From Lachnospiraceae bacterium (GTDB taxonomy: Bacteria; Bacillota_A; Clostridia; Lachnospirales; Lachnospiraceae), in the NCBI GenBank assembly GCA_017416055.1, contig JAFQDI010000224.1, forward strand, positions 1 to 5,517: DNA of 5,517 nucleotides, written 5' to 3'. The notes under the pieces were generated by a model. It searched no databases. It saw only the letters and a list, made by a program, of their open reading frames with translations, and was not told the origin of the DNA. Positions 1 through 5,363 of this stretch are shown one piece after another. Within the stretch, counting starts at the first letter, position 1. Every line of letters starts with the position of its first letter. The position numbers were made by a program, and so were the translations under genes.

Positions 1-63
1 CTTGTTTTCCACAGCCACATCAAACAGGGCATCGCCGTATGTCTTTGAAATCAGCTTCGCCAT
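1..63 (-). CDS. atpH: ATP synthase F1 subunit delta, N-terminal fragment (cut by window edge)
   Basis: Only the first 21 codons are present; the gene runs off the left edge. The translation begins MAKLISKTYGDALFDVAVEN, matching the usual start of the delta (OSCP-type) subunit, in which a short helix leads into a Y-A/G-x-A-L-F/Y motif. Delta sits on top of the F1 head and joins it to the peripheral stalk made by subunit b. The ATG (61-63) lies inside the end of atpF, with a 13-nt overlap (51-63), so translation of the two genes is probably coupled. This is the normal place for atpH in bacterial atp operons. The identification rests on few residues but is well supported by the position after atpF. 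Confidence 0.85.
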   Translation of the reverse strand, partial: MAKLISKTYGDALFDVAVENK

Positions 64-569
64 GTCTCATCACCTATCTCGCTCAATGTCTCCTCGACCA
101 GTTTGTCCTGGATCTCGGTATTCATCGATGCAGAAACCACTTTTCCGGCCATCATGGAAGCAATGGTGATCATCTCCTGCTTCATTCCGTCAACAGCCTT
201 CTTCTTTTCCAATTCGATCTCTGTGTTGGCTCTCGCCATCACGATCGCAGCTTCCGCCTTCGCACGAGCAATGATCTCTTCCTCCTGCTTCAGCGCTTTC
301 TTTCTGGCAGCATTCAAAATTTCCTCAGCTTCCTGATTGATATTGGTCAGCTTATCCTCATAGTCAGCCTTCAATGCGATAGCATCCTCTTTTTCCTGCT
401 TTGCCGTCGAAAGATCCGATGCAATTTTCTCCCGGCGCTTGTTCATCACAGCTCTGGCCGGATTGAAAATCAGATAGGACAGTGCAAAGACTAGGATAAA
501 CAGGTTGATTCCCATGATGATCACATCCTGGATAAACTGAGCATCTAATCCAAACAGTCTGTCGAGCAT
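51..569 (-). CDS. atpF: ATP synthase Fo subunit b (peripheral stalk)
   Basis: A 172-residue protein of typical subunit b length. A short N-terminus is followed by one hydrophobic helix at about residues 16-35, then N-P-A-R at 36-39, the usual transition out of the membrane. Residues from about 44 to 135 form a long charged helix rich in Ala, Lys and Glu with coiled-coil character, and the C-terminal part should bind delta. In the enzyme, b (normally a dimer) holds the catalytic head still against the rotating c ring. The ATG at 567-569 has a strong AAAGGAGG (578-585) 8 nt upstream. The 71-nt gap from atpE is GC-rich and can fold a small hairpin (GCGG/CCGC, 621-632). The gene overlaps atpH by 13 nt. 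No anomalies were seen. Confidence 0.97.
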   Translation of the reverse strand: MLDRLFGLDAQFIQDVIIMGINLFILVFALSYLIFNPARAVMNKRREKIASDLSTAKQEKEDAIALKADYEDKLTNINQEAEEILNAARKKALKQEEEIIARAKAEAAIVMARANTEIELEKKKAVDGMKQEMITIASMMAGKVVSASMNTEIQDKLVEETLSEIGDETWRS

Positions 570-640
570 GATGTCTGCCTCCTTTCTCCCTTATTCACCT
601 GCCGCAAACCGCCCTCTTTCGCGGTCCACCGCATGGCCGA

Positions 641-919
<279 letters not shown>

Positions 920-987
920 TCACATATCTGTGGCGTATTTTTGCGGTGATCGATGAATTCCATCAACATCACGATGCATCATTTATG

Positions 988-1005
988 TCAAGCCCGAAGG
1001 CTTGA
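988..1005 (-). promoter_or_regulatory. UUCG-capped RNA hairpin between atpB and atpE
   Basis: On the minus strand the sequence reads TCAAGCC-TTCG-GGCTTGA: a perfect 7-bp stem closed by C(UUCG)G, one of the most stable RNA tetraloops. It begins about 50 nt after the atpB stop and ends 86 nt before the atpE start. No T-run follows, so it does not look like an intrinsic terminator. A likely role is an RNA processing or 3'-end stability element that sets the relative amounts of atpB and atpE message; this role is inference. Confidence 0.55.
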
Positions 1006-1055
1006 ATCCCTTTTAGAAAAATATCCTTGCCGGCATCCCCACTGCAATCCCCTGT

Positions 1056-1760
1056 TTACTGCTTGTCTCCAATGTATATCGTGGTCAACATACAAAGCAC
1101 ATACGTCTGAATACATCCGGAGAAAACATCCAGATATGCATGCAAAAACGACGGGATTCCGATATGCAGCAGCATCGGCAGCAATCCATACCACAGCGCA
1201 GTGATAATCGTACCGCCCAGCAGGTTCGCAAACAGACGCATGGACATCGACACCGGAACCGCAAGTTCTCCGATCACATTGATGGGGAACAGGAAAAATA
1301 CCGGTTCAAAAAAACTTTTGAAATATCCCAGTTTATTCACCCGTATCGCCGTGAACTGGATGACAAAAAAGTTCGTCAGACCGATGGCAAACGTCGTTCC
1401 GAAATCCGCTGTCGGCGGGCGCAATCCAAACAGTCCGGAAAGGTTACTCACCAACACGAACAAAAACACTGTTCCAACGTAGCCCAGGAACCCGTCACCA
1501 CTTTTCATGTTGCTGTGGATCAAATTCTCCAAAAACTCGATTCCGTACTCAATGACATTCTGAAATCCGGAAGGCACTTCTGTCGCTTTCTTCATCGTGC
1601 GGTTCACAAAAATGCCCAGAATCAAAAGTCCGATGCTCACTGCAAGCATGGAGAGATGTGTCGTGGTGATCCACAACGTCTGGCCGAACAGCTCGTAACT
1701 GAACACACCTTTGATATAAAAGTCCAGGTCTGCGCCTCCGCTACATAATAACATCTGCAT
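1056..1760 (-). CDS. atpB: ATP synthase Fo subunit a (ion channel / stator)
   Basis: A 234-residue, strongly hydrophobic protein with about five or six membrane segments (roughly 30-52, 91-113, 121-140, 152-170, 177-199 and 203-230). It forms the two half-channels for the coupling ion next to the c ring. The essential stator arginine is R175 in S-M-R-L-F-A-N, equivalent to E. coli aR210. Q218 in G-C-I-Q-T-Y-V matches aQ252. At the place of E. coli E219 (Arg+9) there is T184, so that proton-path carboxylate is missing. The frame also opens with a GTG (1767-1769), but that codon directly abuts the AGGA (1771-1774). The ATG at 1758-1760, 10 nt from it, is preferred. The atpI stop lies 20 nt upstream. 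Confidence 0.96.
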   Translation of the reverse strand: MQMLLCSGGADLDFYIKGVFSYELFGQTLWITTTHLSMLAVSIGLLILGIFVNRTMKKATEVPSGFQNVIEYGIEFLENLIHSNMKSGDGFLGYVGTVFLFVLVSNLSGLFGLRPPTADFGTTFAIGLTNFFVIQFTAIRVNKLGYFKSFFEPVFFLFPINVIGELAVPVSMSMRLFANLLGGTIITALWYGLLPMLLHIGIPSFLHAYLDVFSGCIQTYVLCMLTTIYIGDKQ

Positions 1761-1780
1761 ACTTTTCACTTCCTATCCGT

Positions 1781-2308
1781 TTATCTCTTGCCGAAAAACC
1801 GCTCCATCCAACGATCAATGCGATCCGGCTTATCCTCATCATCTTCATCATCCCAATCATCTTCCTCTTCTTCCTCCTCCGGAAGATAGAGTGCATCCGG
1901 GCTGATTTCATCCTTTATCTTAAACCATTTGCAGAACAACTGATGTGTGATGGGTTGAAAAAACACACTAACTTTGATGGAAAACAATGCCAGCAGCGCC
2001 ACCACTACATCAAACAGGTTCCATCGAACCGCAATGAAGGTGCCAAGTGTAATGAACACCATCCGCATCAGATACGATCTCTTGATACTGCGCTTTGCCA
2101 TCTGCCCGTCGCCGGATTCAAATGCATTCTCCACCGATACGCTCATCGAGTAAAACAGTGCCATCGATGCAATAATCCCGACCGCAAATCCAATCGTCTC
2201 CTTCGAGAGAAACCCGGTGATAAATCCCAGAAGCAGTACGCCGACGATTCCGATCAAAGCGATCCCGGACCACACCTCGAACAGTGTCCACTTTAGCTTT
2301 TCATTCAT
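1781..2308 (-). CDS. atpI: ATP synthase subunit I (AtpI-like) with an acidic C-terminal tail
   Basis: A 175-residue membrane protein with four predicted membrane helices (about 13-33, 39-57, 81-97 and 99-117), placed just before atpB, where AtpI (ATP synthase I family) is found. Family members assist c-ring assembly and have been linked with AtpZ to divalent cation handling. After the helices, residues 144-159 form a run in which 15 of 16 residues are Asp or Glu (W152 is the exception), followed by an amphipathic basic/aromatic end (to R175). Typical AtpI proteins are about 120-130 residues, so the tail is an extension. The ATG at 2306-2308 has AGGAGGG (2314-2320) 5 nt upstream and overlaps the end of atpZ by 8 nt. 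The frame stays open upstream to 2362, but that part lies inside atpZ. The family call is from context and topology. Confidence 0.82.
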   Translation of the reverse strand: MNEKLKWTLFEVWSGIALIGIVGVLLLGFITGFLSKETIGFAVGIIASMALFYSMSVSVENAFESGDGQMAKRSIKRSYLMRMVFITLGTFIAVRWNLFDVVVALLALFSIKVSVFFQPITHQLFCKWFKIKDEISPDALYLPEEEEEEDDWDDEDDEDKPDRIDRWMERFFGKR

Positions 2309-2531
2309 CCCTTCCCTCCTGCTCAACGAACCGCTTAGCAAGATTGTAAGCACCCTTGGCACCGCCGAGAAGTCCCAGGATCAGCAAGGGAAGAGTCGTC
2401 GACCAGCCGTATCGATTGTCTAACCACAGCCCCAATGCCAGAAACACTCCTGTCGTCGACAACACTGTAAGGCTGAGCTGTGTCACCATGGCAAAGGCCT
2501 TTCCCACGCTTCCGTTTCGTTTTTTCTTCAT
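2301..2531 (-). CDS. atpZ: AtpZ-like ATP synthase accessory membrane protein
   Basis: A 76-residue protein with two membrane helices (about 17-37 and 45-63) separated by L-D-N-R-Y-G-W. This short D-x-x-Y/F-G loop, followed by L-L-I-L-G and ending G-A-x-x-x-Y-N-L, is the pattern of the AtpZ / F0F1-ATPase 'gene 1' family. In Bacillus pseudofirmus AtpZ works with AtpI, and the pair has been associated with Mg2+/Ca2+ supply and ATP synthase function. Here it is the first gene of the ATPase block and overlaps atpI by 8 nt, supporting joint function. The ATG at 2529-2531 has GGAG about 9 nt upstream. The 28-nt gap to rpiB shows no terminator, so it is probably co-transcribed with the genes upstream. 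Confidence 0.88.
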   Translation of the reverse strand: MKKKRNGSVGKAFAMVTQLSLTVLSTTGVFLALGLWLDNRYGWSTTLPLLILGLLGGAKGAYNLAKRFVEQEGRDE

Positions 2532-2559: not shown

Positions 2560-3000
2560 TCACTCTGCGTCTTCCGCCTCGATCATCCCAATCCGTCTCG
2601 CATGGCGCTCATCACCGGAAAACTCGGTGTTCAAAAAGGTGTCAACGATCTTCACTGCGAGCTCAGGTCCGACCACACGGCCGCCTAGCGCAATGATATT
2701 TGTATCGTTATGCAATCTGGTCGCCTCGGCACTGAAGCAGTCTGAGCAGAGCGCGCAACGGATACCCTTACACTTGTTTGCCGCAATCGAGATACCAATT
2801 CCGGTTCCACAGATTAAAATGCCTTTCTCGCACTCGCCGCTCTGAATCGCCTTCGCAACTTTGCGGGCGTAAATCGGATAATCAACCGACTGCGTGTCAT
2901 AACAACCGTAATCACGGTAAGCAAGTCCCTTTTTCTCCAGATAAGCGATAATCTCCTGTTTTAATGCATAACCACCATGGTCATTTCCCAATGCAATCAT
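2560..3000 (-). CDS. rpiB: Ribose-5-phosphate isomerase B
   Basis: A 146-residue cytosolic enzyme of the LacAB/RpiB family, which interconverts ribose 5-phosphate and ribulose 5-phosphate in the pentose phosphate pathway. The N-terminal A-L-G-N-D-H-G-G (residues 3-10) has the Asp-His pair of the active site. C64-G-T-G-I-G is the catalytic Cys with the phosphate/anion loop, and L-H-N-D-T-N and R-H-x-R-R toward the end match the remaining substrate-binding regions. Length is normal. Three possible starts lie in a row (TTG 3006, ATG 3003, ATG 3000). GGGAGG (3008-3013) is 7 nt from the ATG at 2998-3000, and that start gives the family-like M-I-A-L. The preceding gene ends at 3003. An allose-6-phosphate isomerase role is possible in this family but has no support here. 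Confidence 0.95.
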   Translation of the reverse strand: MIALGNDHGGYALKQEIIAYLEKKGLAYRDYGCYDTQSVDYPIYARKVAKAIQSGECEKGILICGTGIGISIAANKCKGIRCALCSDCFSAEATRLHNDTNIIALGGRVVGPELAVKIVDTFLNTEFSGDERHARRIGMIEAEDAE

Positions 3001-3002
3001 CA

Positions 3003-3449
3003 TCAATCCTCCCTAAATAATCTCTCGGCCGCCATCTTGGTCAGCAAGTCAATATGCTCATAACACACTTCGTAATCCGCGAGACTTCCTCCCAGCGGAA
3101 TCTCCACATCTCCCTTTTCACCGACGAAATTACGGAGTTTATATACTTTCGCCGACGGGTACATTTCCCGAACCAAGAGCACGTCCTGATCACACATTGC
3201 CAACAAGAGCGTATCCTCAGTGATATCCATCGCCGTCAACGGCTCACTGAACTCTTTCGGCAATTCTATGCCGTGACTCTGCATGACGCTGACCATCTTC
3301 GCATTCATCGGCTCAGGAAACAACACCACTACACCGCGAGAAATCGCCTCGATCTCCCGCTCTCCGACGATCCGGTTAAATACACTTTCCGCCGCCGGTC
3401 CGAGACACGTGTTGTCTGTGGAAACAAAGATCACTCGTTTGTACTTCAT
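3003..3449 (-). CDS. Low-molecular-weight phosphatase homologue lacking catalytic residues (pseudophosphatase-like)
   Basis: A 148-residue protein of normal length for the low-molecular-weight protein tyrosine/arginine phosphatase family, in the slot held by ywlE in Bacillus subtilis. The fold signature is clear: V-I-F-V-S-T-D-N-T-C-L-G-P-A-A-E (6-21) aligns with the P-loop I-I-F-V-C-T-G-N-T-C-R-S-P-M-A-E of YwlE, and G-G-S-L-A-D-Y (120-126) matches the late G-G-S motif. Yet the nucleophilic Cys is S10, the phosphate-binding Arg is L16, the following Ser is G17, and the Asp of the D-P motif is I117. Only the second P-loop Cys (C15) remains. The frame has no stop or shift. Catalysis by the usual mechanism should be impossible; a binding or regulatory role is inference. 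The start is ATG 3447-3449 with GAGG 8 nt upstream; a TTG at 3452 is possible. Confidence 0.85.
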   Translation of the reverse strand: MKYKRVIFVSTDNTCLGPAAESVFNRIVGEREIEAISRGVVVLFPEPMNAKMVSVMQSHGIELPKEFSEPLTAMDITEDTLLLAMCDQDVLLVREMYPSAKVYKLRNFVGEKGDVEIPLGGSLADYEVCYEHIDLLTKMAAERLFRED

Positions 3450-3467: not shown

Positions 3468-4535
3468 TCATAGATAAATAATATGGTAACCGGCAGCCTT
3501 CATCAGTCGATTCATTACCGCCGCGCCAAGTTCTGTCTCCTCGAACGTCTCTGAGAGAAGGACTTCCACCCCATCTTGATCCGCCTCGCGCAAAATACGG
3601 AACAGATTGTGCGCAATCATCTCCGGATGCCTGCGAAAGCCCACACTGACCGCTTCCCTTTCGGCAAAGAACGATTTCGTCTCCTCCGTACAGATAATTC
3701 TCACCCTTTTTCCCTGAGTTATACTCTCCTTCGAAAGCTCCAGCAGCTTTCTGCAAACTTTCTCCGACTCTCCGCTCACCAGCGTCATCTCTGCCTTTGG
3801 TGCGTAATGGCGGTACTTCATCCCCGGTGCTTTCGGACGAACATGCTCGGTATTCTCTCCTGTGCTGGCCTTATCTACTTCAGTGTGACCAATCACGTTC
3901 TCAATCATCGTCTGGGTAATATATCCGGGGCGCAAAATCGTCGGCACACCTTCTGTCAGATCAATGATCGTCGACTCCAGACCAATCCCCACTTCGCCGC
4001 CATCCAGGATCATCTCGATCCGCCCATCCATGTCTTCCCACACATGAGAGGCCATCGTAGGGCTGGGTCGACCGGAACGGTTCGCACTGGGCGCCGCGAT
4101 CGGAACACCTGCCGCACGAATCAGCGCAGCCGCAACCGGATGACTGGGCATTCGAATCGCAACCGTATCAAGACCTCCGGTACTTTCCTTCGGAACCAAC
4201 TCGGATTTCAGAAAAACAAGCGTCATCGGTCCCGGCCAAAATGCATCCATCAGTTTTTCGGCTGTCTCCGGAATTTCTGAAACAAGAGAATAAAGTTCAT
4301 TTCGGTCTGCAATATGAAGAATCAACGGATTGTCCGATGGTCTGCCCTTTGCAGCATAGATCGCTTTTGCAGAGCGAGGATCCAGACCATTTCCACCCAG
4401 ACCGTACACCGTTTCCGTGGGGAATCCCACCAATCCTCCGGAACGAATAATCTCACCGGCTCGATCCAATGCTATTTTATCTATTTTTTCCTGATCCACC
4501 GGAATTAATTCCGTATCCATGCGTATTACCTGCAT
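3468..4535 (-). CDS. tsaC: L-threonylcarbamoyladenylate synthase (TsaC/Sua5 type)
   Basis: A 355-residue protein, the long Sua5/YwlC form (B. subtilis YwlC is of similar size). It makes threonylcarbamoyl-AMP from threonine, bicarbonate and ATP, the first step of t6A formation at position 37 of ANN-decoding tRNAs. The YrdC-like domain covers about residues 15-205, with F-P-T-E-T-V-Y-G-L (38-46), K-G-R-P-S-D-N-P-L (63-71), W-P-G-P-M-T (100-105), S-A-N-R-S-G-R-P-S-P-T (150-160) and G-L-E-S-T-I-I-D (185-192). The linker P-G-M-K-Y-R-H-Y-A-P (237-246), typical of Sua5, leads to the C-terminal Sua5 domain. The ATG at 4533-4535 has AGGG 5 nt upstream; an in-frame ATG at 4520 is a less likely start. 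It is the first gene after the predicted promoter, and its stop is 18 nt from the next gene. Confidence 0.96.
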   Translation of the reverse strand: MQVIRMDTELIPVDQEKIDKIALDRAGEIIRSGGLVGFPTETVYGLGGNGLDPRSAKAIYAAKGRPSDNPLILHIADRNELYSLVSEIPETAEKLMDAFWPGPMTLVFLKSELVPKESTGGLDTVAIRMPSHPVAAALIRAAGVPIAAPSANRSGRPSPTMASHVWEDMDGRIEMILDGGEVGIGLESTIIDLTEGVPTILRPGYITQTMIENVIGHTEVDKASTGENTEHVRPKAPGMKYRHYAPKAEMTLVSGESEKVCRKLLELSKESITQGKRVRIICTEETKSFFAEREAVSVGFRRHPEMIAHNLFRILREADQDGVEVLLSETFEETELGAAVMNRLMKAAGYHIIYL

Positions 4536-4712: not shown

Positions 4713-5363
4713 TCAAAAGCCAAACAGTTCAAGCCAAGAGTAGTTGTCATACAACGGATAAAAGCCCACCGCACAATAAGGATAGCGTTCCTCCTGCCCC
4801 TCATATCCGGGAATATCGTGTGCAATCAAGGTGAATCCCGCTGAAGAATTCGTTATCGTTATCGTGTCGCACCCTGTCGTGCATTTACCGTACGGCGAGG
4901 GAGCAGTATCACTGCAAGGCATGTATTTGAGTTCAAGTCTGAAGTCTGAATGAAGAACACTTTTCTCGAGATAATCGACAGGAAGCAGACCTTGCGTATA
5001 AGCACATTTTGCATAATAAACACAATTGTGAAAGAAATTTATGATTCTGATCAGCCTGGGATCATTTCTATCCAATGAGATGGATTCTCCACCCTTATAT
5101 AATATCGCAGAAAGAGGAACACTGTGCGTGTCGGGATATGGCTCATATTTATCGGAAGGTATATCAGAAATAATCGCTCTGATCTCTTCGTCGGATAAAT
5201 AGTCCCCCTCTTTTCCGGCAAAAAACGGATCAGAACAGAAAGCTTCGCTTACAAAAGAGGTGTTTTCCTCACTACTTGAGTGTTCAACATCAGCATAACC
5301 GCATCCCACAAACGAAGTCAGCATTGTTAGCAAAATCAGACATATAAACATTCTCTTAAACAT
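4713..5363 (-). CDS. Predicted secreted lipoprotein of unknown function
   Basis: I do not recognise the family. The 216-residue product starts M-F-K-R, has a hydrophobic stretch (6-19) and a lipobox-like F-V-G-C with the lipidation Cys at residue 21, as in lipoproteins anchored outside the Gram-positive membrane. The Ser/Glu-rich stretch at 29-40 looks like a linker. The mature part has seven further cysteines (43, 114, 120, 150, 161, 165, 197), including C-T-T-G-C at 161-165, many aromatic residues and no membrane helix. The frame is open back to 5429, but the promoter -10 box lies inside that extension and AAGGAGAG (5374-5381) precedes the ATG at 5361-5363, so the shorter start is chosen. 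It appears to be a single-gene unit. Base composition looks more AT-rich than in the atp genes. Confidence 0.8.
   Translation of the reverse strand: MFKRMFICLILLTMLTSFVGCGYADVEHSSSEENTSFVSEAFCSDPFFAGKEGDYLSDEEIRAIISDIPSDKYEPYPDTHSVPLSAILYKGGESISLDRNDPRLIRIINFFHNCVYYAKCAYTQGLLPVDYLEKSVLHSDFRLELKYMPCSDTAPSPYGKCTTGCDTITITNSSAGFTLIAHDIPGYEGQEERYPYCAVGFYPLYDNYSWLELFGF

Follow-up and report, generated by a model that had tools for sequence, protein, structure and literature searches.

The window, the whole stretch of 5,517 nucleotides from a Lachnospiraceae gut bacterium (contig JAFQDI010000224.1), carries between tsaC and rpiB a gene for a protein that has the fold of low-molecular-weight protein tyrosine phosphatases (LMW-PTPs) without their catalytic residues, which we call pseudo-YwlE. 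The gene order tsaC-ywlE-rpiB near the atp genes makes it the orthologue by position of the protein-arginine phosphatase YwlE, and we are confident that it is a YwlE descendant that became non-catalytic and is kept by selection. We consider it rather probable that this positional descendant of ywlE turned pseudophosphatase is retained as a small subunit with a regulatory or scaffolding part in TsaC, the threonylcarbamoyl-AMP synthase; taken by itself, the TsaC role is our best guess and a tentative one.

The open reading frame, which starts MKYKRVIFVSTDNTCLGPAAE..., gives a protein matching the Pfam LMWPc profile (PF01451) with 62.7 bits against a cut-off of 23.2, and its predicted fold is intact. 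The fold and length are thus kept, as a preliminary description of this DNA had stated. In an alignment to YwlE and to the Thermoanaerobacter tengcongensis PTP, S10 stands at the catalytic Cys, L16 at the P-loop Arg and I117 at the Asp of the D-P motif. The C-x5-R P-loop of catalytic LMW-PTPs and arginine phosphatases is hence replaced by S10...L16, and the general-acid Asp by I117-P118. Reading frame and alignment bear out the residues first described (S10, C15, L16, G17 and I117-P118), and D12 marks a further loss, that of the P-loop Gly. A protein search returned 43 relatives. We aligned the window protein with the 26 nearest full-length ones, all on other contigs (the fragments P0028, P0029, P0033, P0035, P0036 and P0037 were dropped). 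The proposed comparison of P-loops shows the same replacements recurring: S10 in 25 of the 27 sequences (two retain Cys), L16 in 26, and D12, T14, C15 and P18 in all, with no Asp at 117 in any of them. The altered P-loop is conserved within the window's clade. Judged from its sequence, the window protein would lack phosphatase activity and bind phosphate poorly. The earlier suggestion that it binds phosphate or phosphoarginine, as a reader of either, is disfavoured, since the phosphate-holding Arg16 is gone and an acidic residue has taken the place of the P-loop Gly12.

How general is this loss? We sampled 150 genomes of one GTDB family, that to which G050, with the Eubacterium oxidoreducens locus L080, belongs. 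This family we take for Lachnospiraceae, since most records behind the loci of a genome scan (best 80 of 265 places kept) bear that name in their titles. Sua5_C is present in 147 of them; the DNA 3' of tsaC was read in 137, and genome-scan loci were used for the other 10. An LMWPc reading frame lies within ~0.9 kb of tsaC in 75 of the 147, always on the tsaC strand. These tsaC-linked copies retain C10 in 28 cases, G12 in 8, R16 in 56 and D117 in 38, and all four residues in 8, so that loss of the full catalytic set (67/75) is the rule for the tsaC-linked copy across the sampled family. Position 10 varies outside the window clade (C, A, D, G or T). Second LMW-PTP copies, fetched from 20 genomes of the group chosen for having one and picked among the higher-scoring, retain CX5R in 20/20, so that catalytic loss belongs to the tsaC-linked copy. 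A loop after strand 2, F-x-E-P-x-N-x-K, is better kept than the catalytic set (F44 in 75, E46 in 73, P47 in 75, N49 in 73 and K51 in 71 of the 75); its conservation was not judged on genome-scan loci, because the scan patterns include VV[LS]FPEP. The idea that the VVLFPEP motif rose together with catalytic loss was rejected, as intact copies carry it too. In one mixed alignment for the fusion model, which was left unused, LMWPc-only rows seemed to slip onto the N-terminal 'FPTE' stretch of TsaC, a resemblance that we take as chance. A profile search for the family gave 2617 proteins at E<=1e-5 (best 120 listed), a count that may include ordinary LMW-PTPs.

The gene is under purifying selection. 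The ratio of nonsynonymous to synonymous substitution rates (dN/dS, Nei-Gojobori) is 0.025-0.12 in 19 pairs, several of which have dS >1, and tsaC and rpiB give similar values in the same pairs; between the window and locus L001, from the closest genome, it is 0.077 at a saturated dS of 2.2. Together with the conserved altered loop, these ratios uphold the proposed selection for a non-catalytic role, and the gene combines the marks of a pseudophosphatase: catalytic residues lost, predicted fold kept and purifying selection. In a tree built leaving out the catalytic columns, with many weak deep forks, the window clade is nested among C-x-[DE]-N-T-C-R-S copies and itself includes both C-x-D-N-T-C-L-G (P0017, P0022) and S-x-[DN]-[ND]-T-C-L-G loops. 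This suggests that the Gly was lost first, then the Arg and Ser, and then the Cys. P0022 retains the Cys and its sister P0027 does not, suggesting that Cys became Ser at least twice within the clade, or reverted. Across the family tree Cys10 changes 15-16 times by parsimony, on which count a single event of catalytic loss was rejected. The several independent losses of the preliminary description are thus in part a single shared history.

Which partner might this protein serve? TsaC, RpiB and the ATP synthase had all been proposed, and the genome-scan loci favour the first. With enough flank, TsaC is adjacent upstream in 74/75 loci (L024 is the one testable locus without it), RpiB is downstream in 57/78 and AtpB lies within 5.5 kb in 14/58. 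Moreover, the gene is fused in frame with tsaC in 13/75 sample genomes, and the tree needs 6 or more changes (gains or losses) of this state. A fusion also occurs in the named isolate Diplocloster agilis (L057), where one protein of 503 aa combines PF01300, PF03481 and PF01451. A search for long proteins found 40 homologues, 35 with all three domains and 3 with uracil phosphoribosyltransferase (Upp) instead; in the latter (P0141, P0150, P0152) pseudo-YwlE stands in front of Upp, not behind TsaC. We aligned 33 of the 35 three-domain proteins with 5 loci of the genome scan; at their TsaC end some metagenomic rows look chimeric. In all 38 rows the motif keeps its F, E, P, N and K, whereas the P-loop varies. 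Linkage and fusion thus point to TsaC as the partner. A link to t6A (threonylcarbamoyladenosine) synthesis has a precedent in B. subtilis, where the t6A enzyme TsaD is controlled by McsB/YwlE (PMC7546277).

Why would a phosphatase lose its chemistry and stay? The protein-arginine kinase McsB, the writer to the eraser YwlE, was searched in the 150 genomes with PF00217 and NF002194, which matched the identical 35 genomes. Both controls matched 0/14 named genomes, among them B. subtilis, which we presume to have McsB, so the McsB counts may include false negatives. Only 5/150 pass the curated NF002194 cut-off, and in all five the tsaC-linked copy is intact. Of the 35 McsB copies, 8 retain the essential Cys of the C-P-T-N motif, which by alignment to the motif we take to be the position of C167 and Cys157 below. 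The B. subtilis mcsB C167S mutant is reported to be kinase-inactive (PMC7235348), and S. aureus Cys157 is catalytically essential according to a review (PMC12467219). Most McsB copies of the sampled family therefore look like pseudokinases. In many of the copies (L081-L096, L197-L226 and L285-L299) NEEDH is altered as well, to NGDDH or a like sequence. A tsaC-adjacent YwlE copy occurs in 14 of the 35 McsB genomes, and intact copies are mostly in genomes whose McsB keeps the essential Cys: the intact set is found in 6/7 genomes with a Cys-bearing McsB, in 1/7 with a Cys-less one (G212) and in 1/61 without McsB (G086; Fisher p 9.5e-7, genomes treated as independent). G212 fits an order in which the writer decays first. 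PF00217 had no match in the genome of L001 (G001), a metagenome-assembled genome, under a search whose control was silent in B. subtilis. CtsR (PF05848) matched 0/150 genomes though McsB is present in 35, with a control that matched L. lactis only and not B. subtilis.

We propose that in Lachnospiraceae McsB lost activity or was lost, and that its decay would have freed the catalytic loop of YwlE to change. What would have kept the protein is another surface that does not depend on catalysis, the F-x-E-P-x-N-x-K loop, which intact copies already carry and whose likeliest docking partner is TsaC (or the t6A machinery). Pseudo-YwlE, made from the same operon, would then serve TsaC as a small subunit, regulatory or scaffolding. 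One might speculate further, with clearly less assurance, that protein-arginine phosphorylation largely collapsed across Lachnospiraceae and that several lineages remade YwlE into a non-catalytic part of TsaC, either a subunit or a domain, docking through this loop and giving a regulated t6A-synthesis enzyme. In this reading the loop may have tied YwlE to t6A synthesis even before the enzyme lost its activity.

Several observations weigh against this proposal. The McsB-YwlE association is not significant by independent pairs, which run mostly in the same direction and leave 2 supported contrasts; G113 combines a Cys-bearing McsB with a degenerate YwlE, and G086 an intact YwlE with no McsB match. 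All 13 fusions are degenerate, yet 13/67 against 0/8 intact does not reach significance (p 0.34). Fusion between operon neighbours comes easily here: 3/40 long homologues carry uracil phosphoribosyltransferase, and the T. tengcongensis PTP chain of PDB 4egs is named 'RpiB'. The window's own protein is unfused. The model of a fusion folds each domain (pLDDT, a local confidence score, 85.9) and gives no confident arrangement of domains (pTM, the global score, 0.65). In many relatives the gene is dispensable or has moved, as 72/147 genomes have no copy within ~0.9 kb of tsaC, and one family member (L284, in G216), with VVLFPEPVNPK and the degenerate loop CTENTYQSP, lies ~1.8 kb from tsaC on the opposite strand. 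The E-P-x-N-x-K loop may serve the fold, being present in intact copies. Finally, the adjacency of tsaC and ywlE is presumably ancestral, judging by the B. subtilis gene order, which makes linkage alone weak.

Ancestral adjacency, fusion to Upp and the motif of intact copies would also suit a conserved pseudophosphatase that uses F-x-E-P-x-N-x-K to bind another partner, e.g. the intact second LMW-PTP (20/20 in genomes chosen for having one), ClpC or a YwlE substrate, the place next to tsaC being no more than an inherited operon position. We hold this to be the most serious rival, if an unlikely one, because tsaC adjacency persists even where rpiB or atp genes moved away and TsaC fusions were repeatedly gained or lost. 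Neutral or relaxed decay of an unneeded phosphatase, its frame maintained through translational coupling or its place in the operon, might account for the many different P-loops and the many genomes without an adjacent copy; it is hard to reconcile with the low dN/dS, the conserved altered loop of the window clade and the kept F-x-E-P-x-N-x-K, and we find it improbable. Slightly less probable still is an enzyme of altered chemistry with S10 or C15 as nucleophile: C15 is invariant in the clade, the predicted fold is intact and PDB 4kk4 is, by its title, the C7S form of YwlE phosphorylated at the active-site Ser, but Arg16, Gly12 and Asp117 were lost together and position 10 varies elsewhere in the family. 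Sequencing or assembly error, the correction of which would restore Cys and Arg, is refuted for practical purposes by the same residues in relatives on other contigs, one 99% identical, and in L001.

The closest known system is YwlE of B. subtilis and Geobacillus stearothermophilus (PDB 4kk3, 4kk4, 4pic), from which the window protein differs in all of the catalytic Cys, P-loop Gly, Arg, Ser and D-P Asp, and in having F-x-E-P-x-N-x-K, absent from the aligned YwlE sequences. The tyrosine phosphatases Wzb, MptpA and human ACP1 have the same PF01451 fold, whereas the window protein lacks their CX5R and D-P. Sua5/TsaC is the partner domain in the fusions, where, unlike the plain enzyme, it bears an extra C-terminal pseudo-LMWPc domain. 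Pseudophosphatases as a kind are known, and the eukaryotic PTP ones belong to another PTP class. Among the latter, PTPRU (PMC7320164) likewise keeps the fold, loses catalysis and has a proposed non-catalytic role; here the protein is bacterial, the loss family-wide and relatives are fused to TsaC. In open-access literature without preprints, searched by titles and abstract starts, neither a family of bacterial LMW-PTP pseudophosphatases nor a fusion of TsaC with LMWPc came up as the subject of a paper.

The features of the window are collected in the table. GAGGA precedes the ATG of pseudo-YwlE at 3449 by 7 nt, the tsaC stop is separated from the gene by 18 nt, and the gene's own stop overlaps the rpiB start as TGATG. 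Upstream of tsaC, a lipoprotein-like reading frame (4713-5363, minus strand) gave no Pfam match at E 0.001. The AtpI-like protein (1781-2335, minus strand) has a long, acidic C-terminal tail (EEEEEEDDWDDEDDEDK), and the ATP synthase c subunit (641-901, minus strand) has Q and A-E-T-T-G-L-Y residues resembling what we take to be the Na+-binding type.

Table. Features of the window, with positions on the forward strand.
Feature	Position	Strand	Basis or remark
pseudo-YwlE, LMW-PTP fold without catalytic residues	3003..3449	-	148 aa, ATG start
Degenerate P-loop, residues 10-18, S-T-D-N-T-C-L-G-P	3396..3422	-	Intact family members: C-x-G-N-x-C-R-[SG]-P
Residues 41-51, VVLFPEPMNAK; F44-x-E46-P47-x-N49-x-K51 among the family's best-conserved stretches	3297..3329	-	Sample and fusion-row alignments
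I117 at general-acid Asp of D-P motif, P118 retained	3099..3101	-	Alignment
tsaC/sua5, threonylcarbamoyl-AMP synthase, upstream neighbour	3468..4535	-	Pfam PF01300+PF03481, TIGR00057
rpiB, first ATG overlapping the pseudo-YwlE stop	2560..3003	-	Profile matches
ATP synthase genes (gene1-like, I chain, a, c, b subunits), downstream context	51..2531	-	Pfam

Annotations of LMW-PTPs beside tsaC in Lachnospiraceae mostly do not denote phosphatases, given the 67 of 75 sampled copies without the full catalytic set. The family offers a case, spread over many genomes, of a writer-eraser pair in decay whose eraser stays on as a pseudoenzyme. The link between YwlE and t6A modification of tRNA becomes testable, and the natural fusions with TsaC are ready material for it.
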